A stretch of DNA of 61,623 nucleotides from a virus. The stretch lies in the IMG/VR virus record IMGVR_UViG_3300030061_004427, positions 1 to 61,623 of that record; one strand, given 5' to 3'. Positions 4,565 to 59,454 of the stretch are shown piece after piece (position 1 is the first letter of the stretch; each line of letters begins with the position of its first letter). The notes below the pieces were generated by a model. It saw only the letters and a program-made list of their open reading frames with translations, was not told where the DNA came from and searched no databases. A program made the translations under genes and the position numbers.

Positions 4565-5645
4565 CTTTTTTATAGTTAATAATGTCTTGGATAGTTGAGT
4601 AGAACGGTTTTTGACCCGAACTATGACAACAAGGTTCTTTCTTCTTGTCATGGGACCATTGATTGAACCAAAATAAGTTGTAATTATGTATTTCTGCTAT
4701 AATACTGTAGAATGGTTCCTCAGTAAAAGGGTGTGCATCATGATTGCTAGTGAATATATCCAATAGCTTCATATACATAGGTAAAACAACTTTTTCTAAT
4801 TCTTCAAACTCGCCACCGAAAATAGTACCTACCGTCCAATTAGGGTATTCAGTTGTAATTTGAGAATCTACATTTTTTGTTTTTTTAGGATCTAATGTAA
4901 ATGTTTTTTTGTCTGAATGCTCGTCTTGATTATATTGTGTACCACATTTCCAACCAAATTCATCTTTTAATACCTTAGATACAAATCTGTTATTCTCTTT
5001 CCAGTCATATTCAGCTAATCTATCGTTTTGAGTACCTTGAGTTATATGAAACCATTTTTTTTGTTTCCATATACGTTTTAAACCGGATGTAAACTTGGGA
5101 GTAAAAATATTGTTTTTATTTTTCGGATAGAAGTGAGAGTCGGGGTACCTTTCTTCCATTTGTCCATTCATACTATAAACGTATTCAGCACCTCCAAGTG
5201 ATTCTGGTATTTTACACCACTCTGTAACACCTGCATCTATCCACACCACTCTATCGCAGCCCCATTCGTTATCTTTAGCTCTTCTACACCATTCTAACTT
5301 CCAGTGACAAAGAAGTTCATTTCTCGGACAAAACATATATGTGTTACCGTCATCTTTACCATCTTGAAGTTTATGCCATACAAATTTATTCTTAGTTTCT
5401 AAAATTTCATAAGATCTAGGCCATTCAAATAAATCTAACCCGATAACTTTAAATTTTTTCCAGTATTTTTCTACAATTGAAGTTAATAAACCTACTTCAT
5501 GTGGCCAACAATATAAATGTAATGGCATGCCAAGCTTGGAAAGATTTTTTAAAGAAGTTTCATATAATTCTTCATCATTATCTTTACCTCCGCAGAGCCA
5601 ATCAGATCTTGCATCATAAACACAGGTAACTAAGATAGGTTTCAT
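4560..5645 (-). CDS. HtrL/YibB-type glycosyltransferase-like protein
   Basis: 361 residues. The start ILVTCVYDARSDW, the central VVWIDAGVTEW (a DxG-type nucleotide-sugar site) and the C-terminal FNQWSHD fit the WlaTC/HtrL family of putative glycosyltransferases. A diverged paralogue lies at 24369-25376 with matching LWVDSGITHW and FQEWNHD. The ATG overlaps the stop of the upstream sulfotransferase (4 bases), suggesting that sugar transfer and sulfation act on one glycan. Acceptor unknown. Confidence 0.65.
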   Translation of the reverse strand: MKPILVTCVYDARSDWLCGGKDNDEELYETSLKNLSKLGMPLHLYCWPHEVGLLTSIVEKYWKKFKVIGLDLFEWPRSYEILETKNKFVWHKLQDGKDDGNTYMFCPRNELLCHWKLEWCRRAKDNEWGCDRVVWIDAGVTEWCKIPESLGGAEYVYSMNGQMEERYPDSHFYPKNKNNIFTPKFTSGLKRIWKQKKWFHITQGTQNDRLAEYDWKENNRFVSKVLKDEFGWKCGTQYNQDEHSDKKTFTLDPKKTKNVDSQITTEYPNWTVGTIFGGEFEELEKVVLPMYMKLLDIFTSNHDAHPFTEEPFYSIIAEIHNYNLFWFNQWSHDKKKEPCCHSSGQKPFYSTIQDIINYKKD

Positions 5646-6253
5646 GGTAATAATTTATAATTAAATTTGGTAAAATCCTCTATGTAAAGATTATTAATAA
5701 ATTCTACGGATTCTTTAGTTAGTAAAGGAACACAAGAACAAGTATCAATACCTGATGAATTCATATGAGGTAACCCTTCAGTTATACCTAATTCTTTACA
5801 CATATCATTAAATTCTTGTTCTAAATTTTCATATCTTAGTACATAATCATAATGAATATTTTCAAAATAGATACTTTGAGATAATATATGATCACAATTA
5901 GAGTATATAAATTTTTGCCACCACTCTAAAAATTGATCACTATCAAAAGTTGTAGCTTTTTTTTCTCTAAAAAAATATTCAGATATAGCTCTTGTATAAG
6001 GGTTCCTTACTATTGTAAATTTTTTGTATGAATTATAAAATTTTTCATATCTTTCTTTTATCATACTTGGAGTAAAATGTTGAGGTGAAAAGAGTAACTC
6101 TTTACCTTTTTCATTACAATAATACGGAAGTTCTTCTTCTCTATAACATGTATTCAATGAATTATCTTTAATGCCAAATTTATTAATAATAGAGATACCA
6201 CCTGTCTTAGGAATATGGACAAAGCATAGATTATGCTCATGGATGAAGGGCAT
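5642..6253 (-). CDS. Sulfotransferase family protein (1 of 3)
   Basis: A 203-residue PAPS-dependent sulfotransferase-like protein. The 5'-phosphosulfate loop is HIPKTGG at residues 13-19, and the 3'-phosphate region is IVRNPYTRAIS near residue 80. Such enzymes move sulfate from PAPS to a sugar hydroxyl. The downstream gene is glycosyltransferase-like and overlaps by 4 bases. TTTAAATA lies 4 nt before the ATG and could be a late-type box. The other two sulfotransferase-like genes are at 11477 and 51689. Confidence 0.75.
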   Translation of the reverse strand: MPFIHEHNLCFVHIPKTGGISIINKFGIKDNSLNTCYREEELPYYCNEKGKELLFSPQHFTPSMIKERYEKFYNSYKKFTIVRNPYTRAISEYFFREKKATTFDSDQFLEWWQKFIYSNCDHILSQSIYFENIHYDYVLRYENLEQEFNDMCKELGITEGLPHMNSSGIDTCSCVPLLTKESVEFINNLYIEDFTKFNYKLLP

Positions 6254-11090: not shown

Positions 11091-11480
11091 ATGAATCGAG
11101 ACGTTCGCAATTTACAAAAACTTATGGAATCAGGAGCTCTTGCTTTTAATATGGGTCCACAAGCTGGAGACTTTGCAGATTACCCACAATCTAATACTAC
11201 AGTTTTAAAATCTCCCGCTAGAGATACCATCTATAAAGTAGTAGATAAACAACTTAAAAGTGCTGAAGGGTTTCTTACAGCAGCAAGGAAAGAAGACATT
11301 GCATCAGCTATAGGTGATGTTAAAGATTCTATATATGTAAAACTCGATCCTTATATAGCAGAAATTAATAAGTTGGGTATGGAAGATGAGATAGATGAAT
11401 ATATTGATAAGACAATAAAAATGATGAAAGGGCCGAGAATGAAAAACCCTACGAGACCATCAGGCAATTTAGAAGATTAA
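11091..11480 (+). CDS. Unknown late-type protein
   Basis: 129 residues from ATG 11091. The N-terminus MNRDVRNLQKLMESGAL contains LME and may be a capsid-targeting leader. The rest is helical and charged, with a basic Pro-rich end. The frame is open further upstream, but that part overlaps the divergent gene and lacks a promoter. Ends 4 bases inside the converging sulfotransferase gene. No function assigned. Confidence 0.6.
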   Translation: MNRDVRNLQKLMESGALAFNMGPQAGDFADYPQSNTTVLKSPARDTIYKVVDKQLKSAEGFLTAARKEDIASAIGDVKDSIYVKLDPYIAEINKLGMEDEIDEYIDKTIKMMKGPRMKNPTRPSGNLED

Positions 11481-12124
11481 GGATCGAAAGTATATTTAAA
11501 TTTTTTTATTTCGTTTTTAGCCTTAGCAGCAACCATTTGTTTTGATTCTTCATCATACCACTCTCTATAATCATTTGGGTATTTAAAATTGAATACGTTT
11601 TTATGTTCTTTAGAACTATTGTCGTTAGGTAGTATATATTTGTTGTAATTAAATTTTTTACATAAAGTATTCCAACATTTTTGTAAATCTTCAAATTTAA
11701 ACCATTTATTATTTTTAAACTCCGGGTCATTAAAAGTATACACCTCTTGTGGTTCATAAAATTCTTCCAAAAACCACTTAAAATTTTCCCAGTCTTGTTT
11801 TTGTGTTCTTATATCAAGTTTAGAAAATTTATCGATATGTAACCAATGAAAATAATAACTTAAAGCATGTGACCACGGGTTTCTAACAAAACAAAATTTA
11901 AAATAACTTTTTAGCTTCTCGTATTCATCTTTTGTATTTTTATCTGTTTTAAGCATCGAATAGTTACCATGCATTCCAAGATAAAAATGCCAATATTCTT
12001 TTTTGATATTTTCGGGTGATCTATCTTTTAATCTTTCGTGTCTCCCCAGTGCTAAATGAATTGCAGATCCCCCTGTTTTAGGTACATGATAAAAAAGAGC
12101 TTTGTGGTGATGGTTAACGTTCAC
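11477..12124 (-). CDS. Sulfotransferase family protein (2 of 3)
   Basis: 215 residues, GTG start 3 bases after the nucleotidyltransferase stop. The PAPS 5' loop is HVPKTGGS at residues 13-20, and FCFVRNPWSHALSYYF near residue 80 supplies the 3'-phosphate-binding Arg and Ser. It has the same layout as the gene at 5642 but is clearly diverged, suggesting a different acceptor sugar. Confidence 0.75.
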   Translation of the reverse strand: MNVNHHHKALFYHVPKTGGSAIHLALGRHERLKDRSPENIKKEYWHFYLGMHGNYSMLKTDKNTKDEYEKLKSYFKFCFVRNPWSHALSYYFHWLHIDKFSKLDIRTQKQDWENFKWFLEEFYEPQEVYTFNDPEFKNNKWFKFEDLQKCWNTLCKKFNYNKYILPNDNSSKEHKNVFNFKYPNDYREWYDEESKQMVAAKAKNEIKKFKYTFDP

Positions 12125-12127
12125 ACC

Positions 12128-12757
12128 CTAATTTATAGACGAGGGAAGGTTTGTCAATAAACTGTAAACCTCGTCAACTACCGTTTTATTATCACGCAAT
12201 CTATCTGGTATATATGGTAATAAATCTTCAACGGATAAATTATCTAATTTGTTTCTTATGTCTGATGCGCTTAACGGGTTATCACCACCAACAGTCGAAA
12301 ATACATCGATATCAAACTCTACACCTTCTGGGGCATACTTAGCAGCATTTTTATATCTTGCAGCATCCTCACCTTTACCACCAACACCTAAAATAACTTT
12401 ATCACCAGGTTGTGTTCTTTCTGCAAAATAATCATAAACAAATTTTACAGGACCTGGGTCTGTTAAAAATGTAATGTTTCTAATATTTTCATTTTCAGCG
12501 TATATTTCAAATATTTTCTTAGCAGTATCTGCAGGTATATATTTTCCTGAATCTGTAGTTCTAATACTTTTTGGATTTTGTGGGTCGCTAATTACAACAA
12601 TTACTCTGTCTGCTTTATCAGCGTAATTTTTAAACATTTCAAAGTGACCTTTATGTGGTGGTTTAAAACTACCCGGAACTAAAGCAACAGTCCTAAAGTT
12701 TACATCTTTATCTGGTATATCTTGTTCACCTAAAAAGAACTGTTTAAATGTTTTCAT
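12128..12757 (-). CDS. Cytidylyltransferase-like nucleotidyltransferase with capsid-targeting-like leader
   Basis: 209 residues. The N-terminus MKTFKQFFLGEQ is close to the T4 internal-protein leader MKTYQEFIAE and would be cut after LGE. The enzyme domain has VPGSFKPPHKGHFEMF, an HxGH-type site at residues 35-38, and PLSASDIRNKL near residue 163 (the ISSTxxR-like motif). Such enzymes join a nucleotide to a phosphorylated partner. A CTTAAATA box and AGG lie before the ATG. The pairing of leader and enzyme suggests packaging in the head. Confidence 0.78.
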   Translation of the reverse strand: MKTFKQFFLGEQDIPDKDVNFRTVALVPGSFKPPHKGHFEMFKNYADKADRVIVVISDPQNPKSIRTTDSGKYIPADTAKKIFEIYAENENIRNITFLTDPGPVKFVYDYFAERTQPGDKVILGVGGKGEDAARYKNAAKYAPEGVEFDIDVFSTVGGDNPLSASDIRNKLDNLSVEDLLPYIPDRLRDNKTVVDEVYSLLTNLPSSIN

Positions 12758-14049
12758 CCTACATTATTTAAGCCTTTGTAGTATTGCTTATACCGCAGCT
12801 TAAATCTCTTGTCAAAGAGTTTAAGGAATTCCTGAATATAATCAACAAACATTTCACCCCTTGCCCCTCTAGCTATATGTTCGGGATTAGCAGCTTCTTT
12901 AAAAATAGCAAAATCTGGAATTAATGGGAGATAATTCAACCAATCTTCTAAGTCATCACCAAAAAGCATATCATATAAAAAGAATTCTATATTATAAAAC
13001 TTTTGTAGAAGGTTAATAAAGAATTGATATCTTATCATCTTCATAGTTCTTTTGTCATTATCATAGACATGGTCCATATATTCTTCATATGCTAATTCTA
13101 TAGCCTTTTTAGTTTGTTTTCTTTCTTCGTCTGTCGGGGCTAATGAATATGGTATCTGTTTCCAATATCTTGTTCTCCATAAGTGAATATTATTGTTTTG
13201 AATTATATTATCTGGAGCTCTAGTTATCTTTATAGACGGTACCCCATTAACACTAAACTCTGAATCTCTTATTGTTGAAAAAACCAACCCATCTAACGAA
13301 ATACCTATACCCTTTTTATCTAAGATTAAATCTGTTAAATTTTGATTTTCGTATGTAATGAAATCGACGCTTAATTTCCTGCTTTTATTAATAGCATCAA
13401 AAACAATAGGCCTATTACTTGTGCTAGCACCACCATAAAAAACAAACTTACCTGATTTAAGTTTCTTTTTTGCTTTTTTTCTTTTTTCAATTTGTAATTC
13501 CGGGGTCTGGTGTCTTAAAGCGTAAAGTTTGTGGAAACTCTCACACATAAATCCTTGTTTACAAAATTTCATATTATTAAACTTAGGAAAATACTTTTCG
13601 TCGCTTTCCGGTACGGCATGTCCAACAGTATGAAAAACCATATGATTATAATCTATATCGTCAGTGTACATCCATGGGGGTTCTACATATATTTCTCCGT
13701 GGTAAAAATTTTCTTCTTTTTGAAAGTATACTATTATATTAGTTTCATCGAAACCATATTCTCTTAATTCTGTTTCTATTTTGCCTTTAAAATGAGGGTA
13801 GGTACCGTTTACATAACATTCCGGTATTACAATTTGTTTGGGTTTTAGTCTTTCTAACTCTTTAAAAAAGAAATACCAATCAATATCATGAATTTTGCCA
13901 CCTAACTCGGGTGAAATATAACCACCCATTTTATGTTCATAAACTATAGGGCCTTCTTCAGTTAAAAGATAAACTGTATCGTAATTGAATATAGTGCAAT
14001 CCGGTGAATGGAATTCACCCACTCTTGGGTGATATTTGACGAACCCCAT
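12754..14049 (-). CDS. Unknown protein, possible glycosyltransferase-like fold
   Basis: 431 residues. The N-terminal half has an alpha/beta look with short beta-strand blocks (IVIPECYVNGTYP). Near residues 203-280 is GKFVFYGGASTSNRPIVFDA and later GISLDGLVFSTIRDSEFSVN with GVPSIKI, a pattern I associate with phage glycosyltransferase-like proteins in which a donor site precedes a GVP turn. No catalytic residues are certain. It overlaps the next gene by 4 bases. Confidence 0.4.
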   Translation of the reverse strand: MGFVKYHPRVGEFHSPDCTIFNYDTVYLLTEEGPIVYEHKMGGYISPELGGKIHDIDWYFFFKELERLKPKQIVIPECYVNGTYPHFKGKIETELREYGFDETNIIVYFQKEENFYHGEIYVEPPWMYTDDIDYNHMVFHTVGHAVPESDEKYFPKFNNMKFCKQGFMCESFHKLYALRHQTPELQIEKRKKAKKKLKSGKFVFYGGASTSNRPIVFDAINKSRKLSVDFITYENQNLTDLILDKKGIGISLDGLVFSTIRDSEFSVNGVPSIKITRAPDNIIQNNNIHLWRTRYWKQIPYSLAPTDEERKQTKKAIELAYEEYMDHVYDNDKRTMKMIRYQFFINLLQKFYNIEFFLYDMLFGDDLEDWLNYLPLIPDFAIFKEAANPEHIARGARGEMFVDYIQEFLKLFDKRFKLRYKQYYKGLNNVG

Positions 14050-14063
14050 GTTATTAGTTATTG

Positions 14064-15416
14064 TTATCTTCGAGCATTACCACCGGTGGCTCGACCAGGT
14101 CCGGGGTATTTAGAATAAGGGGTTCCACCTGGGTCTTTAGAACTTGCTGCATAATTGGTAGCTTGAGCATTTGGGTATTCCATTCTACCATTACCATAAT
14201 TTACACTTGGTGCTGATTGATCATCTTCGTCAGTAGATCTAAATCTACTAGTCATCCCATCTATAATAAATTTACCCGTTATTTTATACATTGGAGACCC
14301 CGATATTCTTGAATCTTGTACTACAATACCTTCATGATCATTAGCAGCACCTAAAACTGATTTATAATTTGATAAAAGTTCGTCTCCTAATTTAATAGTT
14401 GCATGATATAGTAATGCACCATCAACTGCTTGTTGCATATCAGACTCTGAATAGTATTGATCTAAAGGTTGTTCACTTAAAACATTAAGATAATTTTGCT
14501 TACTTACTGCTCCAATTCTTTTACCTTCATTAGTGGTTAACATATAACCAAAAGGATTAATTGCACTACCTAACCAATTACCTAAAGGTTGAGTATTTTC
14601 TTCCTCGTTTGTAAAATTTATAGTAAATGGCTCAGATAGTACCTTTTTAAAATTTGGATGACCAGTAGTCTCTACGTCAGCTCTCGTAATAACATCAAAC
14701 TTATAATGTTCTGCAATTGGTTCTACTATCTTAGCAAGTTCATCAAGTGCATCTTGGCTGTAATTTACTGGTTTTGAAGAGCCTTTTTCTAATTGTTCTT
14801 TTCCAGTAACTTGATTAGTTGTGGTTTGTCTTTGTATTCCGGGTCTTACTAATTGACCTTGTCTATTATATTTTTCTAAAAATTGATTAATACCATGTAA
14901 AGCTAAAAAGTCCTGGTCACCATAATCAATAACGTTTGTGTGTCCTTGAACAAATTCAGCGTTTATAAATTTTGTTGGATCATTCCATAACCCCAATTCT
15001 TCTAACTGCGGTCTAATAAGAGGTAAAGCTTCATTGAAAATGCTTAAAATTATTCTACCACTGTTTACCATACCGTGAGGTGAACCATCTTTAGTAACAA
15101 ATCTATCTTCTAATCTATCAACGGTTACACCATTAACATCTAATTCAGACATTGAACCTCTATCTAAAGCAAATTGTTTTTGTCCTTGTTCGTTTTCAAT
15201 TAGTTTAATACTTACATTTGTTCCGTCGATCTTTATGGCACCACCGTCTTTGTTTAATACATCAACGGTATCATCAAACTTTCTTATTAAATCATTTCCT
15301 GTTTTTACATCTGGAAGATCAAACGGGTGTGCCATATGACCAGCGGCACCGCCTTCGTTTAAAAGAATATTACTTTTATAACTTTCAAATATTATTTCAT
15401 GTTCAAAGTAGCTCAT
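14064..15416 (-). CDS. DUF6267-like nucleotidyltransferase/ligase-fold protein with CTS-like leader
   Basis: 450 residues. Residues 60-70 (AIKIDGTNVSI) hold the KxDG motif I of DNA/RNA ligases, with Lys62 as the expected adenylated residue. FINAEFVQG near residue 150 fits motif III, and HEGIVV near 366 followed by MYKITG fits motifs IV/V. The N-terminus MSYFEHEIIFES...ILLNEGG has IFE and LNE sites like prohead-protease targets. It is in a run of overlapping late genes. A packaged nucleic-acid ligase is the simplest reading; substrate unknown. Confidence 0.65.
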   Translation of the reverse strand: MSYFEHEIIFESYKSNILLNEGGAAGHMAHPFDLPDVKTGNDLIRKFDDTVDVLNKDGGAIKIDGTNVSIKLIENEQGQKQFALDRGSMSELDVNGVTVDRLEDRFVTKDGSPHGMVNSGRIILSIFNEALPLIRPQLEELGLWNDPTKFINAEFVQGHTNVIDYGDQDFLALHGINQFLEKYNRQGQLVRPGIQRQTTTNQVTGKEQLEKGSSKPVNYSQDALDELAKIVEPIAEHYKFDVITRADVETTGHPNFKKVLSEPFTINFTNEEENTQPLGNWLGSAINPFGYMLTTNEGKRIGAVSKQNYLNVLSEQPLDQYYSESDMQQAVDGALLYHATIKLGDELLSNYKSVLGAANDHEGIVVQDSRISGSPMYKITGKFIIDGMTSRFRSTDEDDQSAPSVNYGNGRMEYPNAQATNYAASSKDPGGTPYSKYPGPGRATGGNARR

Positions 15417-16930
15417 GCTTTTAGTGATAGTGGTATTCCTTTCGACATTTGATCATCGAGTCCAAGAGATATTCCTAACTTCGACCCTAGAGCACCTATT
15501 TCCTCAAAGATTGAAGGTATATCTTCTACTAAATTATTTGTAAATTGAAAGGTGTAACAATTAAGAGTTTTGTCGTTCATATAGACTAGATATTTAAATT
15601 GGTGGTGCTGAGCATATGTAGTCAAATGTAAAGTTGCAATTATTTTCTTAAGAGTGTTTTGATCATTATCAAACATTAATTTATCAATTGCATCATCTTG
15701 TAATATAGAATTAAGAGCGATTTTAACATCGTTCATACTGTTATCACTTAAATCATGATTAACCATTAGAGTCAAAGAATCAATATATTCATCTCTTGAC
15801 AAACCATAATCATTTAGATATCCATTTTGAACTACTTGATTCCATGTTGGATTATCTTTTTTGGTTAATACTCTATTATCTTTTGCATCAATATAAGTTT
15901 GTAGAGCATCAACATATTTGTTTAAATGATTTTCTATAGAAGTAGCCGTTCTTTTATCATATCGTTTTGGATCGTACAAATCATTTTGTATTTTTGATAC
16001 AAATCTCATTAATGATTCTTGATGCATATCATTTCTTGTATCAGATATAGCACCTATAGATTCTATTGCGCCTTCAAGTTGGTTATCAAATTGATCAATA
16101 TCCTGATTATGTAATTTATCAATTAGTTTTTTAATTGGTATTAATAATTTTTCTCTTGCACCTATAACCTTTTTATGAGCTGATTGAATACCTTGCCCTG
16201 TATGAATTGATTTACCTTTATCTAATAAAAATTCTGGTAGTTTAGTCCTTGCTTGAAAAGCTCTATCTTGTGAACCCGGTCTACCATCTAGACCTTTTAA
16301 TTCTACCTCACCTAGTGATGGAAAATCTAAATCTCCAGATTCACCTTTTATACCATTTGAAAACATTGTCATTAATAATTCGCCTTTACCAACTCCAACA
16401 TTGTTTATTTTGAAACTATAATTGTATAATGAATGCATTAGTTCCTCAACATTAGAAAAACACGCCCCTACTACTGGAGCTAATACAGCACCTAAATTCC
16501 AAATACCTGCTTCACCAATTTGTGAACCATTCTCTTGAATTGCATTTTCTAATCCTGGTAACCCAAGCCTAGCTACTTTTTCTTGAGCTAGTATGGATAT
16601 TGCCTCACCGTCTGTATCTGATTTATTATGAATAATATGAATAACGGTTTCTAATAAATCTTTATATTCTTTATTACTTTGATCCCATTTTGATGCTCTT
16701 AAAATAGTATCCACATCTTTTGTCCATCCATCAGTTCCTTTACTTGATATTTGTCTTTTTAAAACTTTAAAATAAGCATCGTCTACTGTTCCTATTTTTT
16801 CTGGATCACCAATACCATCAACATCAGCAAATATAGCAACGTTTTCTCTTATTGCACGTCTTGGTACTTTCGGTACCGGCTTATAAGCAATGGCACTATA
16901 AACTTCATCTAGTGGTATATATTTTTTCAT
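15413..16930 (-). CDS. Putative PD-(D/E)XK-like nuclease fold protein
   Basis: 505 residues, unknown family. Near residues 186-212 the protein reads GVGKGELLMTMFSNGIKG, ESGDLDFPSLGEVELKGLDG. The Asp in GDLDF and the E-L-K eleven residues later fit a PD-(D/E)XK active site, and the preceding GE(L)L helix is also typical. The rest is helical. It overlaps the ligase-like gene by 4 bases, so a nuclease and a ligase are made together. The assignment rests on this motif only. Confidence 0.45.
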   Translation of the reverse strand: MKKYIPLDEVYSAIAYKPVPKVPRRAIRENVAIFADVDGIGDPEKIGTVDDAYFKVLKRQISSKGTDGWTKDVDTILRASKWDQSNKEYKDLLETVIHIIHNKSDTDGEAISILAQEKVARLGLPGLENAIQENGSQIGEAGIWNLGAVLAPVVGACFSNVEELMHSLYNYSFKINNVGVGKGELLMTMFSNGIKGESGDLDFPSLGEVELKGLDGRPGSQDRAFQARTKLPEFLLDKGKSIHTGQGIQSAHKKVIGAREKLLIPIKKLIDKLHNQDIDQFDNQLEGAIESIGAISDTRNDMHQESLMRFVSKIQNDLYDPKRYDKRTATSIENHLNKYVDALQTYIDAKDNRVLTKKDNPTWNQVVQNGYLNDYGLSRDEYIDSLTLMVNHDLSDNSMNDVKIALNSILQDDAIDKLMFDNDQNTLKKIIATLHLTTYAQHHQFKYLVYMNDKTLNCYTFQFTNNLVEDIPSIFEEIGALGSKLGISLGLDDQMSKGIPLSLKA

Positions 16931-17286
16931 TAATAGTTAATATCAGGATCGTCAGTATATGTGTTCAAATAAGTTCTTATTTTTGATAGCATTTGCCGTC
17001 CATTATTTTCATTAATCTCCGTATCAAGCAATTCTGGAGGTATGGTACCCTCAGTCGGGTTAACGACTAAAGCTTTCAAAATTAAACGAATGAGTTCAAC
17101 TTCACCTTCTGAAGTGAGTTTTTGAAATTCTGGTTCTGGTTCTGTAATAGTTTCTGTTTGTTGAACATCTACTACTTCTTCGCCAGGTACAGGTGCTAAG
17201 GGTGGTTCCATTGGAGGTACCTGCTCATTTAACACACCGTGTTTATTTTTTATTATTTTGAAAAATTTACTTCTTAATGTAATCAT
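16930..17286 (-). CDS. Unknown protein with CTS-like N-terminus
   Basis: 118 residues. The basic amphipathic N-terminus MITLRSKFFKIIKNKHGVLN continues into EQ, giving an LNE cleavage-like site. A Pro/Glu-rich disordered linker follows, then a helical C-terminus. One-base overlap with the next gene and 4-base overlap with the upstream gene place it in the same late operon. Confidence 0.6.
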   Translation of the reverse strand: MITLRSKFFKIIKNKHGVLNEQVPPMEPPLAPVPGEEVVDVQQTETITEPEPEFQKLTSEGEVELIRLILKALVVNPTEGTIPPELLDTEINENNGRQMLSKIRTYLNTYTDDPDINY

Positions 17287-17726
17287 GACAATTTACTTGT
17301 TACGTCCCTTATTTTATTAACTACTTTACCATGAAGATCTTGAGTAGCTTGAGCAACCTCAGGAGACTTTAATTGCTTACCTAAAGATAATGCCTTTTGT
17401 AAATCAGATGTATTTACATCATCAAAAGCTTCATTTCCAGCTTCAGTTTCATCAGTACCACCTTCCATATCTTCATATTCTTCATCAGTACCACCTAATT
17501 CCGGTGTATTAATACCTGCTTCTCTTGCTAATGCCGCAAGCTCCATGTAATTATCATGGTAGATTCCCATTAGTTGCTCATTTTCGCCGTATGAAGTGGT
17601 TCCTAAAGCATCATATGCTACTTTGATTGCTCTTTTTAAAACTTCCGCCGGTACTTGAACGTGGCGCGCTTCTTCTGATACAAGATATGTATTATAACCT
17701 TCTCGTATTGCATTATCGAACTTCAT
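17283..17726 (-). CDS. Unknown acidic late protein
   Basis: 147 residues. The N-terminus MKFDNAIREGYNTYLVSEEA could be a capsid-targeting leader (VSE is a weaker match to the LxE rule). The central part is Glu/Asp/Gly-rich and the C-terminus helical. First gene of the 12128-17726 late operon; a late-type box lies 6 nt upstream. Confidence 0.62.
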   Translation of the reverse strand: MKFDNAIREGYNTYLVSEEARHVQVPAEVLKRAIKVAYDALGTTSYGENEQLMGIYHDNYMELAALAREAGINTPELGGTDEEYEDMEGGTDETEAGNEAFDDVNTSDLQKALSLGKQLKSPEVAQATQDLHGKVVNKIRDVTSKLS

Positions 17727-17732
17727 TTTATA

Positions 17733-17740
17733 TATTTATT
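17733..17740 (-). promoter_or_regulatory. Late-type box (AATAAATA)
   Basis: AATAAATA, 6-nt spacer, ATG 17726. Likely the main late promoter for the operon down to 12128. Confidence 0.6.
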
Positions 17741-18305
17741 TGAAAATCAATTGTTTTGTCTTGATATTGTCAAAATATTCGTTTGAAAGAAAATTTAATT
17801 CATATTTAGTTGCAAATTTTTTAACTTTTTCAAATGTAAAGTTTTCTATTTTAAATTTAGATAGTGTTGAATTAATTTTCATAACTGTGCCTTTAGCTCT
17901 TCCATCGTTTAACTTTACAAGCTCTTTAAAGTAAGGTAAGCTCCTCATCGATATCACAACTTTTATAGGTAAAACACTTCTTAATTTCAATAACAATTTT
18001 GTAAGAATATCTAGATAGCTTTGTTCACTAACGTAATTTAATATTTCACTTTCATAAAACTGTGTATTATTGAAATAAACTATTACCTTGTTATTGGTTT
18101 TAATTTTATTGATATAATCTACTGTACCTTTAATTGAATGATGAAAGAATAATTTTTTAATATCTTTATTTTGAAATCCTTTTTCTTTAAATGTATCTAT
18201 CAATAAACTATTATGAATTTCATCTAATAAATCTTTATCGAACTTTTTATGAATGTCTTGAAAGTCGATAAGAGTTATATTGTATTGTGAAAGATTAAAT
18301 CTCAC
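17736..18305 (-). CDS. Unknown protein with early-type promoter
   Basis: 189 residues, basic, alpha/beta pattern (VIVYFNNTQFYESEI, PIKVVISMRSLPYFKEL), no domain recognised. The GTG at 18305 is favoured by an early-type promoter placed 6 nt upstream. Its early promoter sets it apart from the late genes on both sides, so it may act on host functions or replication. Confidence 0.6.
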   Translation of the reverse strand: MRFNLSQYNITLIDFQDIHKKFDKDLLDEIHNSLLIDTFKEKGFQNKDIKKLFFHHSIKGTVDYINKIKTNNKVIVYFNNTQFYESEILNYVSEQSYLDILTKLLLKLRSVLPIKVVISMRSLPYFKELVKLNDGRAKGTVMKINSTLSKFKIENFTFEKVKKFATKYELNFLSNEYFDNIKTKQLIFK

Positions 18306-18755: not shown

Positions 18756-18998
18756 TTATTTCTTTTTGGATTTTGTTCTACTCTTTTTCTTTTTCTTTTT
18801 CTTCTTTTTTGATACACCGGCTCTTCTTTGCATTGCACCAAGAGCAAAAGGTCTTCTAGCATCACCAGGAGCATATAAACCTGGACCAGAAAATTGAGAT
18901 TGATCCCAACTACCTAACACACCACCAGATCCAGCGACGTTACCTCCGTCTTCTTCTGATAACAAAGCTTTTAAAAATGCGTTTTGGTAGATTGACAT
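18756..18998 (-). CDS. Small capsid-internal-like protein with poly-Lys tail
   Basis: 80 residues. The N-terminus MSIYQNAFLKALLSEEDGG looks like a capsid-targeting leader with cleavage at LSE. The middle is Gly-rich and the end is a run of nine Lys followed by more Lys/Arg/Ser. Such a basic tail would bind packaged DNA, as T4 internal proteins do. The late-type box CTTAAATC is 5 nt before the ATG. The Lys codons form an AAG/AAA microsatellite. Confidence 0.68.
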   Translation of the reverse strand: MSIYQNAFLKALLSEEDGGNVAGSGGVLGSWDQSQFSGPGLYAPGDARRPFALGAMQRRAGVSKKKKKKKKKSRTKSKKK

Positions 18999-19027: not shown

Positions 19028-19426
19028 ATGTCTGAAATTATACACAAGTACCAAGAAGAACTTAATGAGCATTTGGTAATAGATGAATTTACCTTAAAAG
19101 ATGTACAATTACAACTTCCCGGTAGAAGACATATTTGGGTTGGTCGATTAATGAGACACAAACACGAAGTAAACCAACTCAAAAAACAAAAAATTGCAAG
19201 CCTTGCAGATCTTACGGGTAAAATCCAAGAACAAAGTAATGTAAGATTATCTACACCGGCTGCTGAAAAAGTTGCTGAAAATTCCGAAATAGTAAAGAAA
19301 ATAAATAGCAATATACAAGAACAGTACCTAGTAATTGAATATCTCGAAAAAGTAGAAAAAATTATGGGGTCGATCGGGTTTGATATAAGAAATATTATAG
19401 AAATACAAAAACTTGAAACGCAATGA
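19028..19426 (+). CDS. uvsY: UvsY-like recombination mediator
   Basis: 132 residues, close to the 137 of T4 UvsY. UvsY helps load UvsX on gp32-covered single-stranded DNA. The N-terminal EELNEHLVIDEFTL pattern, the basic Lys-rich central helix and the end GSIGFDIRNIIEIQKLE match the T4 layout (RGFAIKHIQDMRAFE). It heads a plus-strand operon with sugar genes, joined by overlapping stop and start codons. Confidence 0.78.
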   Translation: MSEIIHKYQEELNEHLVIDEFTLKDVQLQLPGRRHIWVGRLMRHKHEVNQLKKQKIASLADLTGKIQEQSNVRLSTPAAEKVAENSEIVKKINSNIQEQYLVIEYLEKVEKIMGSIGFDIRNIIEIQKLETQ

Positions 19427-19902
19427 TTGAAATAAGATTGATACTATTTGATATTGATGGGGTTTTAACGGACGGAACAGCTGCATACAATGAAAAGGGT
19501 GAAGTTATATCCAAAAGTTATAATCAAAAGGATATTACAGCTTTGAGACGGTTTCAAAATGAGTTAGGAATTAATATAGCTTTATTTTCTGGTAGTTTAG
19601 ACATTAATCCAGCATTTGCCGAAAGAAGAAAGTTCGATTTCATTAGTGTAAAACATAGATTTGGTGAAAATAAGTCTACCAAGTTAAATGATATATGTTT
19701 TGACTATAATACACCCAAATCACAAGTAGCATTTGTGGGTGATGATGTACAAGACTTGGATATAATGAAAGAAGTTGAATATGCTTTTTGTCCTAAAGAT
19801 GCTATTCCAGAAGTACAAAAAATATCATGTGTTTTACCTGTAAATGGTGGTTGTGGTGTTGCAGCTCATTTATTTGAATATATTAAAAACACGAATAACT
19901 AA
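19423..19902 (+). CDS. KdsC-like HAD phosphatase
   Basis: 159 residues. Motif I is FDIDGVLTDG (D10, D12), and motif IV is VGDDVQDLDIM near residue 106, with the KdsC-typical NGGCGVAAHL end. KdsC removes phosphate from KDO-8-phosphate, and relatives act on acylneuraminate-9-phosphate. With the neighbouring sugar nucleotidyltransferase and glycosyltransferase-like gene it probably prepares an acidic sugar. Start overlaps the uvsY stop by 4 bases. Confidence 0.82.
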   Translation: MIEIRLILFDIDGVLTDGTAAYNEKGEVISKSYNQKDITALRRFQNELGINIALFSGSLDINPAFAERRKFDFISVKHRFGENKSTKLNDICFDYNTPKSQVAFVGDDVQDLDIMKEVEYAFCPKDAIPEVQKISCVLPVNGGCGVAAHLFEYIKNTNN

Positions 19903-19908
19903 TAAAGA

Positions 19909-20625
19909 ATGAACGTTGTTATTCCAATGGCTGGCAAGTCAACAGCTTTTAAAGAAGCTGGAATTGAAACACCCAAACCTTTTCTTGATATTAAAGGAAA
20001 AACCATGGTTCAACGGGCTTATGAAAGTATTGGTATAGATGCTAACTACTATTTTATAATTTTAAGAGAACACGAAGAAAAATATGGTGTATATGACTTA
20101 ATTCATAAGTTTTGCCCTGATGCTAAAGTGTTATACGTTGAAGAAGTCACAAGTGGACCGGCGGAAACGCTTTTTGTCAGTAAAAAATTTATTCCTAACA
20201 ATGAACCCATTATACAAACTAACGTGGATCAAATTCTAGATTGGGAACCAAAACGGTTTTTACAATATATTAAAAAAGAAAAACCAGATAGCGCAGTAGT
20301 AACAAAATATACAGTAGACCCTCATTATAGTTTTATAAGAGTTGATCAATTTAATAACGGTGAGTTATTAAAAGAAAAAGAAGTGTGCTCTTGTCATGGG
20401 TTAATTGGTACTCATTACTGGAAAAAAGCTAAATACTTTTTTGATTCTTTTCTTGGAGCTAAAAAGAAAGGATATAGATATAATGACGAAATTTACGTTT
20501 CGTTAACTTTTAATGATCTTATAGATCGTGGTTTAACTGTTAAAAATTATTGTTTAAAGCAACATGAAATACAACATGTTATAGGAAGCCCGGATGAACT
20601 TAAAATATATGAAGGGAAACTTTGA
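19909..20625 (+). CDS. Sugar-phosphate nucleotidyltransferase
   Basis: 238 residues with the start VVIPMAGKSTAFKEAG and TPKPFLDIKGKTMVQRAY, the nucleotide- and sugar-binding loops of the NTP_transferase family (the signature Gly-x-Gly-x-R is reduced to GKSTAF). TNVDQILDW near residue 105 is the metal-Asp region. It makes a nucleotide-activated sugar from a sugar phosphate. Follows the KdsC-like gene by 6 bases. Exact sugar unknown. Confidence 0.75.
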   Translation: MNVVIPMAGKSTAFKEAGIETPKPFLDIKGKTMVQRAYESIGIDANYYFIILREHEEKYGVYDLIHKFCPDAKVLYVEEVTSGPAETLFVSKKFIPNNEPIIQTNVDQILDWEPKRFLQYIKKEKPDSAVVTKYTVDPHYSFIRVDQFNNGELLKEKEVCSCHGLIGTHYWKKAKYFFDSFLGAKKKGYRYNDEIYVSLTFNDLIDRGLTVKNYCLKQHEIQHVIGSPDELKIYEGKL

Positions 20626-21418
20626 TTGTTCGATACTTGTTTTAAGTTCTGATGCATATCAGCCAATACTTAAAATATGGGACTTTTATCATCAGAAAAA
20701 CTGGAAATGCCCGTACAACGTCTATACCGTTTCAAATAAAAAACACTATGAAAGTAAAAATGTAGAATGTATTGTTACTGGTGTTAAGTGGGAAGAAAAT
20801 GCTTCTCATTTTAAACCTATGGTACTACAAGGTCTTAAAAAAATCACCACCAAATATGTGTTGTTTATGGTGGAAGATCAAATAATAGTTAATCCAGTTA
20901 TATCAGAAAACTTCTACCACGCTCTAAATTTTATGGAACGTAATGACATCACCAAACTTCGTTGTTTATCAATGCCCGAACCAGACTTACCACTAGAAGG
21001 TAATCCTGAAGGACCTATAACTAATGAAAACTTTGGAATGATATCTAAAAATAACGAATATAGAAATTCATTACAAGCAGCAATATGGAACAAAGAAAGA
21101 ATTACTGAACTTTTAAACAGTACCGAGGGTGATTTTTCGGGGTGGCATTTAGAAACAGATAAAACCTTAAAAAAATATTCTAAAAAATGGAAATATGTTG
21201 CATGTCGACAAGGTAAAGGTGGTACATTGTTAAGTAGAAACGAAGGACAAACAGATTCCCCGTTGTTACAATACGTAGAACTGGTAAGGTGGGGTAAATT
21301 AGACAGGCTTTACTATGATTACTTCAAAGAAATGTTTGAAAAAGATGGAATAGACGTAACCTCTAAGGAATACGAACCATTTGGAGGTAATTTAACTAAG
21401 GAAGAACTACCAGAATAG
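20609..21418 (+). CDS. Glycosyltransferase-like protein
   Basis: 269 residues from ATG 20609, overlapping the previous gene by 17 bases (an ATG at 20594 is also in frame). SILVLSSDAYQPILKIW begins like a GT-A fold, and YVLFMVEDQIIVNP near residue 87 has a (E)D pair in the place of a DxD motif. A WHLETDKTL segment follows. It probably completes the KdsC-like/nucleotidyltransferase set. No exact family recognised. Confidence 0.6.
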   Translation: MKGNFDCSILVLSSDAYQPILKIWDFYHQKNWKCPYNVYTVSNKKHYESKNVECIVTGVKWEENASHFKPMVLQGLKKITTKYVLFMVEDQIIVNPVISENFYHALNFMERNDITKLRCLSMPEPDLPLEGNPEGPITNENFGMISKNNEYRNSLQAAIWNKERITELLNSTEGDFSGWHLETDKTLKKYSKKWKYVACRQGKGGTLLSRNEGQTDSPLLQYVELVRWGKLDRLYYDYFKEMFEKDGIDVTSKEYEPFGGNLTKEELPE

Positions 21419-49503: not shown

Positions 49504-50538
49504 ATGGATATTACGAAAGTACTCGTAGTAGGCAAAGGTTTTATTGGTCAACAATTATCTACTTTTCTTGCTACAGATGAAAGATTAGAAGTACATCAAA
49601 TAGAAAGTTCACAAGTTAACTACCGTGATTACAACACATTCGTAGACTTTCTAACACAATATGAAGAAGAAGGAACAGGGTTTGATGCAATAATTAATGC
49701 AGCTGGGTTTACTGGTGAAAAAAACGTTGATGATGCTGAAAAACAGAAAGAATTGGTGTGGTTATTAAACACAGTATTGCCAACCACCTTAGCATCAGCA
49801 GCACAAGCATGTAATATACCTTCTTTTTTTAATATCTCTTCTGGTTGTATATTTACAGGCTATACAAAGCCAGATCCATATGTAGGGTACACTGAAGAAG
49901 AAGTTCCAAACTTTGGTTTGTTTGATGATGACTCATCTTGGTATAGTAAAACAAAGCATGCTGGTGAGCTTTCACTAACATCAAGCTTTAATTGTTATAA
50001 TTTACGTATCAGAATGCCAATTGGTGAAATATTCCACCCAAAAAATCTTATTTCAAAGATGTTGAAGTATGAAACAGTACTAGATGAAGATAATAGTGCA
50101 ACATATATGTTTGATTTAATGAATTTTGTATATAATGCTATTTTAGCACCACCGCCTTTTGGTATCTATAACATTGTAAGTTCGAATGTGTTCAATTCAA
50201 AAGATTTATTCACTGCTTTTAACAATAATAAAGAAGATCTTATACAAGAAGGCCTTCTTCCTAATGGTTGGTCCTTAGAAAACATTAAATTCATTAAAGA
50301 AAAAGCATTCTACAAGAAAGGCGTAACGGCAGTAAAGAGAAGTAACTGTATTCTTAACAATACTTCAGCTTCAGAGTTAAAACTACATGAATTCACTGAT
50401 GTTTCGCATGATTTCCTTGATAAAGTGGTGAAAGGTTACATAGAAAACAAAAGAACCTTGGAATCTCAACCAGATAACGTGGTAGATATAGAAGAAATTC
50501 AAGGAGCCAAAGAACCACGTAAAGACGAAGATATATGA
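49504..50538 (+). CDS. RmlD-like NAD(P)-dependent sugar reductase/epimerase
   Basis: 344 residues. VLVVGKGFIGQQL is the nucleotide loop, AIINAAGFTGEKNVDDAE the RmlD-type substrate loop, ISSGCIFTGY the catalytic Ser/Thr block, and WYSKTKHAGE the Tyr-x3-Lys. The C-terminal 40 residues are acidic. It overlaps the RmlB-like gene by 4 bases. TAAAAT lies 6 nt before the ATG. Confidence 0.78.
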   Translation: MDITKVLVVGKGFIGQQLSTFLATDERLEVHQIESSQVNYRDYNTFVDFLTQYEEEGTGFDAIINAAGFTGEKNVDDAEKQKELVWLLNTVLPTTLASAAQACNIPSFFNISSGCIFTGYTKPDPYVGYTEEEVPNFGLFDDDSSWYSKTKHAGELSLTSSFNCYNLRIRMPIGEIFHPKNLISKMLKYETVLDEDNSATYMFDLMNFVYNAILAPPPFGIYNIVSSNVFNSKDLFTAFNNNKEDLIQEGLLPNGWSLENIKFIKEKAFYKKGVTAVKRSNCILNNTSASELKLHEFTDVSHDFLDKVVKGYIENKRTLESQPDNVVDIEEIQGAKEPRKDEDI

Positions 50539-51476
50539 CTGTTTTAGTTACAGGTGGTTATGGGTTTATAGGTCATCACCTAGTTAAATGCCTTAGAAAC
50601 AAGGGATATCGAACTATTGTTTATGATAAAGAAACATATGCATGTGAATACGTTGATAAAGAGAACGTTCGTACCGTCTGGAGTGTGTATGGAGACATAT
50701 TAGACGTTAAAAAGTTAGAAAGCGTATTTAGAATCCATAAATTCGACAAAGTATTTCATTTAGCAGCAGAGTCTCATGTGGATAATAGCATTGCTAATCC
50801 AAACGTGTTTGCTAACACAAATGTAATAGGCACTGTCAATATATTAAACTTGGCTAAACAGTACGGAAAGCAAGTGATCCACGTGTCAACAGACGAAGTT
50901 TATGGTGCTTTACGTTCGGACGATAAAAATTGGAATGAAAAGCAACCCGTACTACCAAATTCACCTTATTCAGCTTCAAAAGCTAGCTCGGATCTGATTG
51001 CACTGTCGTATTACAAAACATATGGTATGGATGTTCGTGTTACTCGTTGTTGTAACAATTTTGGTACAGGTCAACATGCAGAAAAACTGATACCAAAATC
51101 AATTCTTTCATCGATACAAGACAAAGAAATATTACTTTACGGTGATGGTACCAATAAACGTGAATGGGTCCACGCTGAAGACCATTCAGAGGCTTTAATA
51201 TTAGTAGCTGAAAAGGGTAAGGCTGGTGAAATATATAATATCGGTTCGGGGGATGAATATTCTAATAATCAAATAGCTAATAAAATTATTAAGTATACAC
51301 AACCCGATACTACCATAAGGTATATTTCGGACAGACTTGGTCACGATTTTAGATACGCAGTAAACTTTTCTAAAATAGAACGATTAGGGTATTCTCCAAA
51401 GAGAAGTATAAAAAATAGTAAGGAATGGAATGAAATTATTGAATTTTATAAGAAACACTGGAAAACCCAAACCTAG
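50535..51476 (+). CDS. RmlB-like NDP-sugar 4,6-dehydratase/epimerase
   Basis: 313 residues. VLVTGGYGFIG at 3-13, FHLAAESHVDNSI near 75, HVSTDEVYG near 116 (Thr-Asp-Glu, the dehydratase triad) and YSASKASSD near 143 are all present, as is the C-terminal REWVHAEDHSEAL. dTDP-glucose 4,6-dehydratase is the closest recognised function. With the RmlD-like gene it forms a deoxysugar pair. Confidence 0.88.
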   Translation: MTVLVTGGYGFIGHHLVKCLRNKGYRTIVYDKETYACEYVDKENVRTVWSVYGDILDVKKLESVFRIHKFDKVFHLAAESHVDNSIANPNVFANTNVIGTVNILNLAKQYGKQVIHVSTDEVYGALRSDDKNWNEKQPVLPNSPYSASKASSDLIALSYYKTYGMDVRVTRCCNNFGTGQHAEKLIPKSILSSIQDKEILLYGDGTNKREWVHAEDHSEALILVAEKGKAGEIYNIGSGDEYSNNQIANKIIKYTQPDTTIRYISDRLGHDFRYAVNFSKIERLGYSPKRSIKNSKEWNEIIEFYKKHWKTQT

Positions 51477-51480
51477 ATAC

Positions 51481-51702
51481 ATGTACGCCATAAAAAATGG
51501 TGATTATGCAGGGCATTTCTGTGCCTATATTCGATCTACCACGGAAAAACATATTTTTCTCACAGTACCTAACAATCAAAAGATAGAAGTACCTATAAAA
51601 GACTTTAAAGATGGTATGAAATCGGGACTAGTAGACTTTGTAGAGGTTTTACCAAGACATGTCTATAAAGTAATTAGAGCACAATACGATGCAACAAATT
51701 AA
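51481..51702 (+). CDS. Unknown small protein
   Basis: 73 residues from ATG 51481. The segment MYAIKNGDYAGHFCAYIRST looks like a small beta-barrel (KOW-like) and the rest alternates charged strands. It begins 4 bases after the RmlB-like gene and overlaps the sulfotransferase start by 14 bases. No domain assigned. Confidence 0.55.
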   Translation: MYAIKNGDYAGHFCAYIRSTTEKHIFLTVPNNQKIEVPIKDFKDGMKSGLVDFVEVLPRHVYKVIRAQYDATN

Positions 51703-52249
51703 TAAGGTTTTTGGTATAGGTTTATCCAGAACGGGTACAACTTCCTTACATGAAGCATTTAAAATTTTAGGTTTACGCAGTTATCACTACCCACAACACT
51801 TCGAAAGTATACTTGCCAGTGATGCTGCTGTTGATGTCACAGTAGCAATGAGTTATAAAATTTTAGACGTGTTTTTCCCCGGGAGTAAATTTGTTTATAC
51901 CGTGAGAAAAATAGATAAATGGGTTGAGTCTATGCAAAAATATTTTGAAGCTACTATCAATCAAATGGATGATGAATTTGCCAATAAAGTAAACAGAATT
52001 GTATATGACAGAACTAGATTTGATGAGGAGGATATAGAAGCATTTAAAGTCGCATTTGAAAAGCATCATATGGATGTCCTATCATATTTCAAAGATAGAC
52101 CCGATGATATTTTAATTCTTGATATCATTTCCGGTGACGGATGGGAAAAATTATGCCCGTTTTTAGATAAAGACATACCAAACGTACCTTTTCCAAAAAC
52201 CAATACTACAAATGAAAATTGGAAAATGACTCAATCAATTTTTAGTTGA
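51689..52249 (+). CDS. Sulfotransferase family protein (3 of 3)
   Basis: 186 residues. GIGLSRTGTTSLHEAFKILG at 9-28 is the P-loop-like PAPS site of the GLSRTGTT group, and FVYTVRKIDKWVESMQKYF near 70 gives the 3'-phosphate Arg and Ser. It differs in type from the two KTGG-type copies. Located after the RmlB/RmlD-like genes, so a sulfated deoxysugar is possible. Confidence 0.72.
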   Translation: MQQINKVFGIGLSRTGTTSLHEAFKILGLRSYHYPQHFESILASDAAVDVTVAMSYKILDVFFPGSKFVYTVRKIDKWVESMQKYFEATINQMDDEFANKVNRIVYDRTRFDEEDIEAFKVAFEKHHMDVLSYFKDRPDDILILDIISGDGWEKLCPFLDKDIPNVPFPKTNTTNENWKMTQSIFS

Positions 52250-57286: not shown

Positions 57287-58170
57287 GAAGTTGGGCCGAA
57301 AGGCCCGTCTTCTGGTTCTTCAGTGTTTCCGTAGCCCCCATAAACGTCGTCATAACCAAAGTCTTGGTAATCAAATATTGCTTTAGATAATTCTTCAAGA
57401 TCACCATCATAACTCTTATTAGGTGACCTGGAATTTGTACCTTCATCCATTCTACCAGAGAATTTATCATCATACACTTGATCGCTTCCACCTTCTGTAC
57501 TTAAACCAGGCTCAAAACTGTAATCGAAACGTTTAGCCTTAACCATCCATACATAGTGACCAGCAAGAGGATTGATTCTAGCAACGTCCTCATCTAATCT
57601 CTCTGTTATCTCAAACTGTTTACCTGTTCTAGGCCATGGTCTGTCATCACCATACTCGGATAATATGAATACATCACCGGCTTTAGGCTCTTGAGGGTAA
57701 CCAAACGAAGCATAAAAGCTACTAATATGTATATAAGCAGTTAATTCGTCGTCTGAATCAAATCCATACTTCTGTAATATAACTGCATTTTCGTTTAACT
57801 CGATTGCAACGATTATTTTCTTTGGATCTACAAAAACTTTAGTAGGATCTTCACCATATATGTTACCAGGACCACCACCTTCACCATTTATAGCACCTTG
57901 AGGCACACCATCTGCTGATAAAGTCTGGTATGGGTTTTGATAATATGTTACTTCTTGCCCATATAAAGCAATAATTTCTTCCCACCAATTATCTATTACA
58001 ATTCTCTCACATTCGTTTTGAGATTTGTCCGTAAATCTAAAACATTTATTATAGGGCTTAGGACCAGGATAAATTGAACCAGGGTTATCTGGATCGGGTG
58101 TAGGAACACCCGGTAAAAACTGAGGCATGATTTGATTCATCCCCCTATATCTGTCCATTTCTACTGCCAT
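57283..58170 (-). CDS. 14: gp14-like neck protein
   Basis: 295 residues. The order of blocks (ECERIVIDNWWEEIIALYG, VTYYQNPYQTL, IYGEDPTKVF, IHISSFYASFG, KAGDVFILSEYG, FEITERLDED, YVWMVKAKRFDYSFEPG) parallels T4 gp14 (YYVPREY, LIFGEDL, FFSNFG, KEGDLIYFPM, FEINWVEP, KFIYSGEEINP). The neck joins head and tail after packaging. An acidic, Gly/Asp-rich C-terminus is added. The ATG shares one base with the previous stop. Confidence 0.72.
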   Translation of the reverse strand: MAVEMDRYRGMNQIMPQFLPGVPTPDPDNPGSIYPGPKPYNKCFRFTDKSQNECERIVIDNWWEEIIALYGQEVTYYQNPYQTLSADGVPQGAINGEGGGPGNIYGEDPTKVFVDPKKIIVAIELNENAVILQKYGFDSDDELTAYIHISSFYASFGYPQEPKAGDVFILSEYGDDRPWPRTGKQFEITERLDEDVARINPLAGHYVWMVKAKRFDYSFEPGLSTEGGSDQVYDDKFSGRMDEGTNSRSPNKSYDGDLEELSKAIFDYQDFGYDDVYGGYGNTEEPEDGPFGPTS

Positions 58171-58565
58171 TATACTAAATTATCTGTAGTTGTTGTTGGT
58201 TCTGGTTTTTCTACTTTAGTTTTTAACAAATAATACTCACCATTTGGTTTTACCTCAATAGCTATACCTGTCTTTTTTAGCCCTTTTGGTCTACCAGGCT
58301 TTAATCTATTTACACCAAAACGTTTGGTTAACATATAAGCATCTTTTTGTGATATTTTAATGTATTTTGGACCTACTCTTTGTTGTAATACTCTATAAGC
58401 TGCGGGTAGCGAGGTATCATTTTGTAGATAATTAGCTACCGTCAGTGGCGACTTACGCAAACCCGGGTCTTTTGGTATTGCTCGTTGGTGTCTATGATTA
58501 ACACCTGGAATATTTCCTGTATTAAATCTTTCTTCAATCATAATGAAAAACTCTTTAAAAGTCAC
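58170..58565 (-). CDS. CTS-leader late protein, basic
   Basis: 131 residues, GTG start supported by the late box at 5 nt. MTFKEFFIMIEER is a clear capsid-targeting-like leader (IEE site) and nearly equals the leader of the gene at 59188. The rest is basic (GVNRLKPGRPKGLKKTGIAI). Probably a packaged internal head protein. Confidence 0.68.
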   Translation of the reverse strand: MTFKEFFIMIEERFNTGNIPGVNHRHQRAIPKDPGLRKSPLTVANYLQNDTSLPAAYRVLQQRVGPKYIKISQKDAYMLTKRFGVNRLKPGRPKGLKKTGIAIEVKPNGEYYLLKTKVEKPEPTTTTDNLV

Positions 58566-59187: not shown

Positions 59188-59454
59188 TTACCAATCTTTA
59201 CAAGCTTGATATCTTGCTGTACCAGGTTTAGCAGAACTACATTTATGTCGAGCTCTAAAGCTTTTTCTCCTTTTTGTATTAGCTTTACCTGATACCTTAA
59301 CTCCTTTTTGACCCCAATGAATTTTTTTGTATCCTTTACCATCAGGATTCTTTACACATTTCATCCATTTTTTACCTTTAGATGTACTGCTAGCTTTTTT
59401 TGTGGTCTTAGTACATTTTTCTTCTATCTTAATAAAAAACTCTTTAAAGGTCAT
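59188..59454 (-). CDS. CTS-leader late protein, Cys/Lys-rich
   Basis: 88 residues. MTFKEFFIKIEEK is the capsid-targeting-like leader. The mature part is strongly basic with KWMKCVKNPDGKGYKKIHWG, VKVSGKANTKRRKSFRARHK and three more Cys, like a family of phage basic proteins (DUF6321-like; uncertain). It likely binds packaged DNA. The following gene begins one base after its stop. Confidence 0.65.
   Translation of the reverse strand: MTFKEFFIKIEEKCTKTTKKASSTSKGKKWMKCVKNPDGKGYKKIHWGQKGVKVSGKANTKRRKSFRARHKCSSAKPGTARYQACKDW

Follow-up and report, generated by a model that had tools for sequence, protein, structure and literature searches.

The window analysed here is a 61.6-kb stretch of DNA (IMG/VR record IMGVR_UViG_3300030061_004427; virus record G000), a fragment of a marine T4-like myovirus whose genes read as including a T4-type replication set. 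Nine minus-strand genes follow closely on one another between 18750 and 11477, in the order GIY-YIG (SegE type), 189 amino acids (aa), 147 aa, 118 aa, 505 aa, 450 aa, 431 aa, 209 aa and sulfotransferase. Their junctions are 1-4 base overlaps or short gaps, with listed values of -4, -1, -4, +14, -4, and +3. Two proteins of this operon, the 209-aa nucleotidyltransferase (NTase) and the 450-aa protein carrying a KIDG motif (KIDG protein), probably enter the host along with the viral DNA, because each stands behind a T4-like head-loading leader. The overlapping operon proposed in a preliminary description of this DNA was confirmed, with the minus-strand open reading frames (ORFs) at 12128-12757, 14064-15416, and 15413-16930 overlapping or nearly abutting their neighbours.

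The NTase (12128..12757, minus strand) was identified by profile matches as a HIGH-superfamily nucleotidyltransferase with an N-terminal leader. It exceeded the cut-off of Pfam CTP_transf_like (PF01467; 27.7 bits versus 21; E 3.4e-6) and also matched TIGR00125 (5.7e-9). The HKGH active-site motif (12644..12655, minus strand) was found as the preliminary description had stated, and H35, G37, and H38, together with R168 of the distal (S/T)xxxR motif, were invariant among 19 relatives, which places the protein in the HIGH superfamily. Its profile matches among PDB structures (best 2e-6) were split between phosphopantetheine adenylyltransferases (PPAT) and NMN adenylyltransferases (NMNAT), a split that points to no one substrate. 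Assignment to the NMN adenylyltransferases was not supported in NCBIfam, where all the equivalogs scored far below cut-off. The cyanophage cytidyltransferase is homologous to the NTase (hhalign 8e-9 with the protein of S-SCSM1 and three others).

The KIDG protein (14064..15416, minus strand) is predicted from its motifs and modelled fold to be a ligase-fold nucleotidyltransferase. Motif I, KIDGTN (K62 to N67; 15216..15233, minus strand), contains the predicted nucleotide-accepting lysine, and its residues K62, D64, G65, and N67 were invariant in 45 relatives, as were R86 of motif Ia and E154 of motif III. Motif IV, EGIV (E362 to V365; 14322..14333, minus strand), showed invariant E362, G363, and V365, and motif V, KITG (K378 to G381; 14274..14285, minus strand), showed invariant K378, T380, and G381, with a threonine where the classical KxK has its second lysine. 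These motifs follow one another as they do in capping enzymes and ATP-dependent ligases, and a long insertion separates motif IIIa from motif IV. Motifs I, Ia, III, IV and the first lysine of V were thus all present as in the covalent nucleotidyltransferase (ligase/capping) superfamily. A loose ligase-motif pattern fitted 60 of 61 ORFs of the KIDG family. Among the 270 other ORFs it fitted 2, and one of them is a KIDG family member with a mis-called start.

In the AlphaFold model of the KIDG protein, 272 residues had a predicted local distance difference test score (pLDDT) of at least 90; the core was confident, while the leader and the tail were disordered. The top five Foldseek matches in the PDB were all RNA ligases, though weak (T4 Rnl2, E 0.045). 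VIA-align placed T4 Rnl1 first (Z 7.3, 175 residues, 4.4 A), followed by NgrRnl (6.8) and Trl1 (6.5), and ranks 1-31 were occupied by RNA and DNA ligases only. Among the predicted viral structures of BFVD, the best matches were large phage cytidyltransferase fusion proteins and then viral RNA ligases. The earlier claim of a ligase motif behind a leader was supported by the invariant motif set, the predicted fold and the start ..NILLNE|GGAAGHM (the bar marks the candidate cut site). At the level of sequence, no database family matched the protein, the profile search of solved structures with it gave nothing meaningful, and neither it nor the 505-aa protein had a tblastn match in isolate phages; a distant isolate relative (Mel-JY01) was reached by way of a fused homologue. 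The T4 Rnl2 family PF09414 did not match the KIDG protein and was matched weakly, below cut-off, by 7 of 45 relatives (best E 0.01). The KIDG protein could instead be a structural or scaffold protein of the head, built on a non-catalytic ligase fold, with the NTase partner serving likewise. The missing second lysine of motif V speaks for such a role, as does the fact that some of the core proteins that gp21 cuts in T4 are structural (PMC9026906); we regard this role as highly improbable given the invariance of the other catalytic residues in 45 diverse relatives and of HxGH and the distal arginine in the NTase.

The NTase leader, MKTFKQFFLGE|Q (12725..12757, minus strand), resembles MKTYQEFIAE|A of T4 IPII/IPIII, as read from the T4 record, and has the T4-type features of aromatic residues 4 and 7 and an [LI]xE cut site. 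This agrees with published work on T4, in which gp21 cleaves after L/I-x-E and, in the IPIII leader, residues 4 and 7 are needed for targeting and residues 8 and 10 for cutting (PMC9026906). The capsid-type leader noted earlier for this protein was therefore found as described. The 21-residue leader of the KIDG protein (15354..15416, minus strand), which ends in LLNE|GGAAGHM, contains the cut site behind a looser targeting part, and its [LIV]xE|GGAAGHM start fits a T4 prohead-protease site. NTase homologues encoded as separate genes kept a similar leader followed by a variable linker. Across the fetched loci, leader-like sequences occurred at 28 of 973 N-termini versus 13 of 3903 internal Met positions (P 2e-11, from related and thus not independent genes). 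Two further small minus-strand proteins, at 58170-58565 and 59188-59454, begin with the near-identical TFKEFFI.IEE, so several unrelated proteins of the window carry the leader. The protein at 59188-59454 weakly matches DUF5754.

The site itself was kept among relatives. The GG[AS]AGH[ML] start occurs in 73 distinct contexts, and in 64 of them Glu precedes GG; all 64 sites have L, V or I at P3 and a hydrophobic residue at P4, whereas P2 is free. In a stricter count of 71 contexts, the exceptions were eight direct M|GG starts and L061 (7956-9047), the sole context with Cys for the Glu before GGAAGHM, as a real loss or a sequence error. In fusion proteins the E|GG site was retained 214-1000 residues from the N-terminus, after variable sequence (e.g., FSKEWW...ILNE|GGAAGHM). 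The GGAAGHM domain was not visible on reading in a Flavobacterium phage relative of the NTase.

Proteins related to the NTase have been recovered from virions. Two proteomic reports describe NMNAT-like proteins identified by mass spectrometry in virions of S-SCSM1, S-CBWM1, S-SZBM1, and S-CREM2 (PMC9602691, PMC10665884). ORF91 of S-SCSM1, annotated as a virion protein and itself among those detected, starts with MKSFLQFLKE|A, and the leaders of the cyanophage NTase relatives follow MK[KS]FxxFLxE|A. These detections bear on the alternative that both proteins are ordinary intracellular enzymes of RNA or DNA repair and NAD+ metabolism, with an N-terminus that is merely flexible and an E|GG that marks a domain border. 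That account draws on the eight leaderless M|GG contexts and on the need that phages without another DNA ligase might have for one in the cell. It seems quite unlikely, since Glu at P1 and L/V/I at P3 stay fixed around a variable P2 even at junctions inside fusions that follow variable sequence, unrelated proteins begin with a similar leader, and leader-bearing NTase relatives are found in virions (PMC9602691).

The two enzymes are closely linked in related viruses. Among 65 distinct relatives, 45 were fused in either order (29 NTase-KIDG and 16 KIDG-NTase), the NTase was a separate downstream gene in 12, and no NTase was shown in 8, of which 5 were in short loci. One isolate, the Microcystis phage Mel-JY01, also has such a fusion (NTase-IIAE|GGLGGHMNHPF...EKLDG), whose gene lies 2.6 kb upstream of the large terminase gene. 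In 20 contigs chosen from the relatives, Peptidase_S77 was present in 13 and Portal_T4 in 14, and in four fusion contigs the KIDG and portal genes shared a strand and were about 9-13 kb apart. HExxH zincin-like stretches were observed in fusion or related NTase proteins of L036 (5715-9077), L060 (2944-6978), and L118 (7122-9845), and the L060 protein also has an apparent HAD-type stretch; this make-up is reminiscent of polyvalent proteins.

The preliminary description had called the KIDG protein DUF6267-like. A match to the hidden Markov model (HMM) of DUF6267 (PF19782) was found neither in the KIDG protein and its relatives nor elsewhere in the window, so the likeness did not hold as family membership; it held by position, with a true DUF6267 gene in the same operon slot of a relative. 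In this relative (G014, the 184-kb contig of L107), the order GIY-YIG, 177 aa, two small genes, nuclease-like, DUF6267, and NTase is the same as in the window, the nuclease-like protein shows 25% identity (6e-28), the DUF6267 match is 1.2e-77, and the NTase leader is MKSFKQFILE|Q. Because DUF6267 takes the KIDG position there, the two replace each other in one slot, and this synteny is the strongest sign of their relation. Unlike the other contigs searched, G014 combines DUF6267 with a bona fide RNA_ligase gene and has no KIDG gene. DUF6267 also directly precedes the cytidyltransferase in S-MS29, S-RIM8, and P-SSM3, and phrog_455 matches proteins of both kinds. By tblastn, DUF6267 relatives were found in 471 phage records, mostly cyanophages, and the proteins had invariant KxDG, EGxV, and K; hhalign aligned them with the KIDG family over HxxHPxD...KxDG only (E 0.012). 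Our literature search found no open-access paper on DUF6267.

Neither an ATP- or NAD+-dependent DNA ligase nor NadV was found in 15 genomes searched, and RNA ligases were limited to a match over the cut-off in G014, a contig with no KIDG, and a weak match in Mel-JY01. Since there is no DNA ligase and almost no RNA ligase in this set, the KIDG protein may be the sole ligase-type enzyme of many of these phages. The absence of NadV also concerns the alternative that the packaged pair mainly restores NAD+ through the NTase in the face of host defence, with the KIDG protein adenylylating a protein or small molecule and not sealing nucleic acids. The NMNAT-like annotation of the NTase relatives and the frequency of NAD+ depletion as a defence (PMC9503650) are in keeping with it. 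Phage NadM, however, always co-occurs with NadV (PMC9503650), and the NTase profile is divided between PPAT and NMNAT; we consider this alternative possible, if rather unlikely.

The favoured explanation is a packaged pair whose targets, as infection begins, are the ends of nucleic acids and adenylylated cofactors, the chemistry being the more conjectural part. From the motifs, predicted fold, leaders, fusions, and synteny computed here, we infer the packaging and cleavage of these particular proteins, their joint action and their substrate. The T4-like capsid-targeting leaders would bring the NTase and the KIDG protein into the prohead core, where the prohead protease would cut after [LIV]xE and leave mature ends such as GGAAGHM. 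Both proteins would then enter the cell with the DNA and act together there ahead of phage gene expression. The KIDG protein would most likely move AMP from ATP or NAD+ onto K62 and then to a nucleic-acid end, and so might seal or cap RNA or nicked strands, while the NTase might supply NAD+ or a similar adenylylated compound. That the enzymes of this operon are internal head proteins of the T4 style, injected with the DNA and acting as a pair before phage gene expression, is given a probability of about 0.68. Injection with the DNA, as suggested in the preliminary description, is well supported, though indirectly, by the leaders, the invariant [LIV]xE|G site, the T4-type protease and portal in related contigs, and the NMNAT-like relatives detected by mass spectrometry; the putative role in end repair or counter-defence is plausible.

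Several observations weigh against this explanation. The 61.6-kb window, a fragment, contains no prohead protease. Our literature search found no report of KIDG or DUF6267 proteins in virions. The authors of the proteomic reports (PMC9602691, PMC10665884) allow that the NMNAT-like proteins might have co-purified, and the detection in S-CREM2 was based on only 3 peptides. Eight contexts lack any leader before GG, and P3 is Val in 11 of 64 sites, outside the strict L/I. The Z score of 7.3 is only middling, and motif V is KxTG and not the KxK of Rnl2. The KIDG family HMM performed no better against T4 Rnl2 than against shuffles, so the ligase assignment rests on the motif sets and the predicted fold.

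Among the neighbours in the operon, the 505-aa protein (15413..16930, minus strand) resembles PD-(D/E)XK nucleases and has a large helical insertion. In its motif region E184...D200...E210xK212 (16295..16381, minus strand), the E...D...(D/E)xK pattern was present, and G181, G183, E184, K195, G199, D200, E210, and K212 were invariant in 23 sequences; the predicted helix-strand-strand-helix order also fits PD-(D/E)XK. The fold search, dominated by the helical insertion (241-354), returned helical-bundle matches only and listed no solved nuclease, a result still compatible with a nuclease fold, and the sequence-profile search of solved structures gave nothing meaningful. The nuclease proposed in the preliminary description thus stood in its motif residues and not in its fold matches, and the identity is a candidate one based on motifs. 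When the 505-aa family was compared by profile with the gene that lies upstream of DUF6267 in cyanophages, no match was obtained, and the two may be unrelated. The 431-aa gene between the two enzymes (12754..14049, minus strand), which had gone unmentioned, matched no family in the searches, was kept in close relatives only and has no counterpart in the syntenic L107; by eye its product looks like a glycosyltransferase.

The 189-aa protein (17736..18305, minus strand; E 2e-7) and the small 118-aa protein with a leader-like start (...GVLNE|Q; 16930..17286, minus strand; E 6e-4) have homologues in L107, and a small acidic 147-aa protein (17283..17726, minus strand) lies between them. In a promoter scan, promoter-like sites were no commoner than in shuffles. 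An 80-aa ORF at 18756-18998 (minus strand) has a leader-like start, LLSEEDGGNVAGSGG and a lysine run at the end, and similar GGxVAG stretches recur in the C-terminal parts of the L029 and L069 fusion proteins. Apparent sugar-nucleotide, glycosyl- or sulfotransferase genes lie at 5642-6253, 11477-12124, 19423-21418, and 49504-52249, which is many for a 61-kb phage fragment.

The DUF6267 relatives amount to several hundred phage records with no assigned function, and an injected pair of a ligase-fold and an NMNAT-like protein gives them a testable reading. If true, it would help to explain the recurring NMNAT-like proteins in cyanophage virions, would extend what phages bring in ahead of their first gene expression to nucleic-acid repair or cofactor supply, and, through the predicted internal prohead-protease site of the fusions, would allow several packaged enzymes to come from one gene. 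More speculatively, KIDG and DUF6267 proteins could be widespread, unrecognised head-packaged nucleic-acid ligases, with many marine-phage polyproteins that include the NTase cut in the prohead at an internal [LIV]xE|GG, as a sealing kit brought into the cell with the DNA by phages without another ligase; we hold this extension only tentatively.

T4 internal proteins and packaged NMNAT-like proteins are already known; what is apparently new is that the KIDG domain is ligase-like, that it is fused to the NTase and changes places around it, and that an internal processing site is conserved. Phage polyvalent proteins (PMC5512222), which are predicted to be injected, are likewise large and multidomain, as some relatives are here, with HExxH zincin-like stretches and nucleotide enzymes, whereas the enzymes of the window are separate genes; in a text search of that paper, ligases came up only in the passage on 2H domains, and HIGH-type NTases did not come up. 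With T4 Rnl1 and Rnl2 the KIDG protein shares the predicted fold and the motif order, and its KIDGTNxS resembles KIHGTNFS of Rnl2, but it differs in KxTG for KxK, in the long IIIa-IV insertion, in having no recognisable C-terminal domain and in the lack of sequence-level significance. Cyanophage DUF6267 has in common with it KxDG, EGxV, K, adjacency to the NTase and the operon slot, with no significant sequence match beyond HxxHPxD...KxDG. The virion NMNAT-like or cytidylyltransferase proteins (phrog_395 type) of S-SCSM1, S-CBWM1, S-SZBM1, and S-CREM2 are homologous to the NTase, with the same kind of leader in S-SCSM1, and the available portions of the papers on these phages make no mention of the leader, a ligase-like partner or fusions. 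In T4 IPI-III and Alt, the prohead protease removes a short capsid-targeting leader from the N-terminus by cutting after L/I-x-E, as is predicted for the proteins described here. Their cargo differs from the HIGH-superfamily NTase and ligase-fold enzyme of the window, for which packaging is predicted; Alt is itself an enzyme injected with the DNA, as is proposed for this pair.

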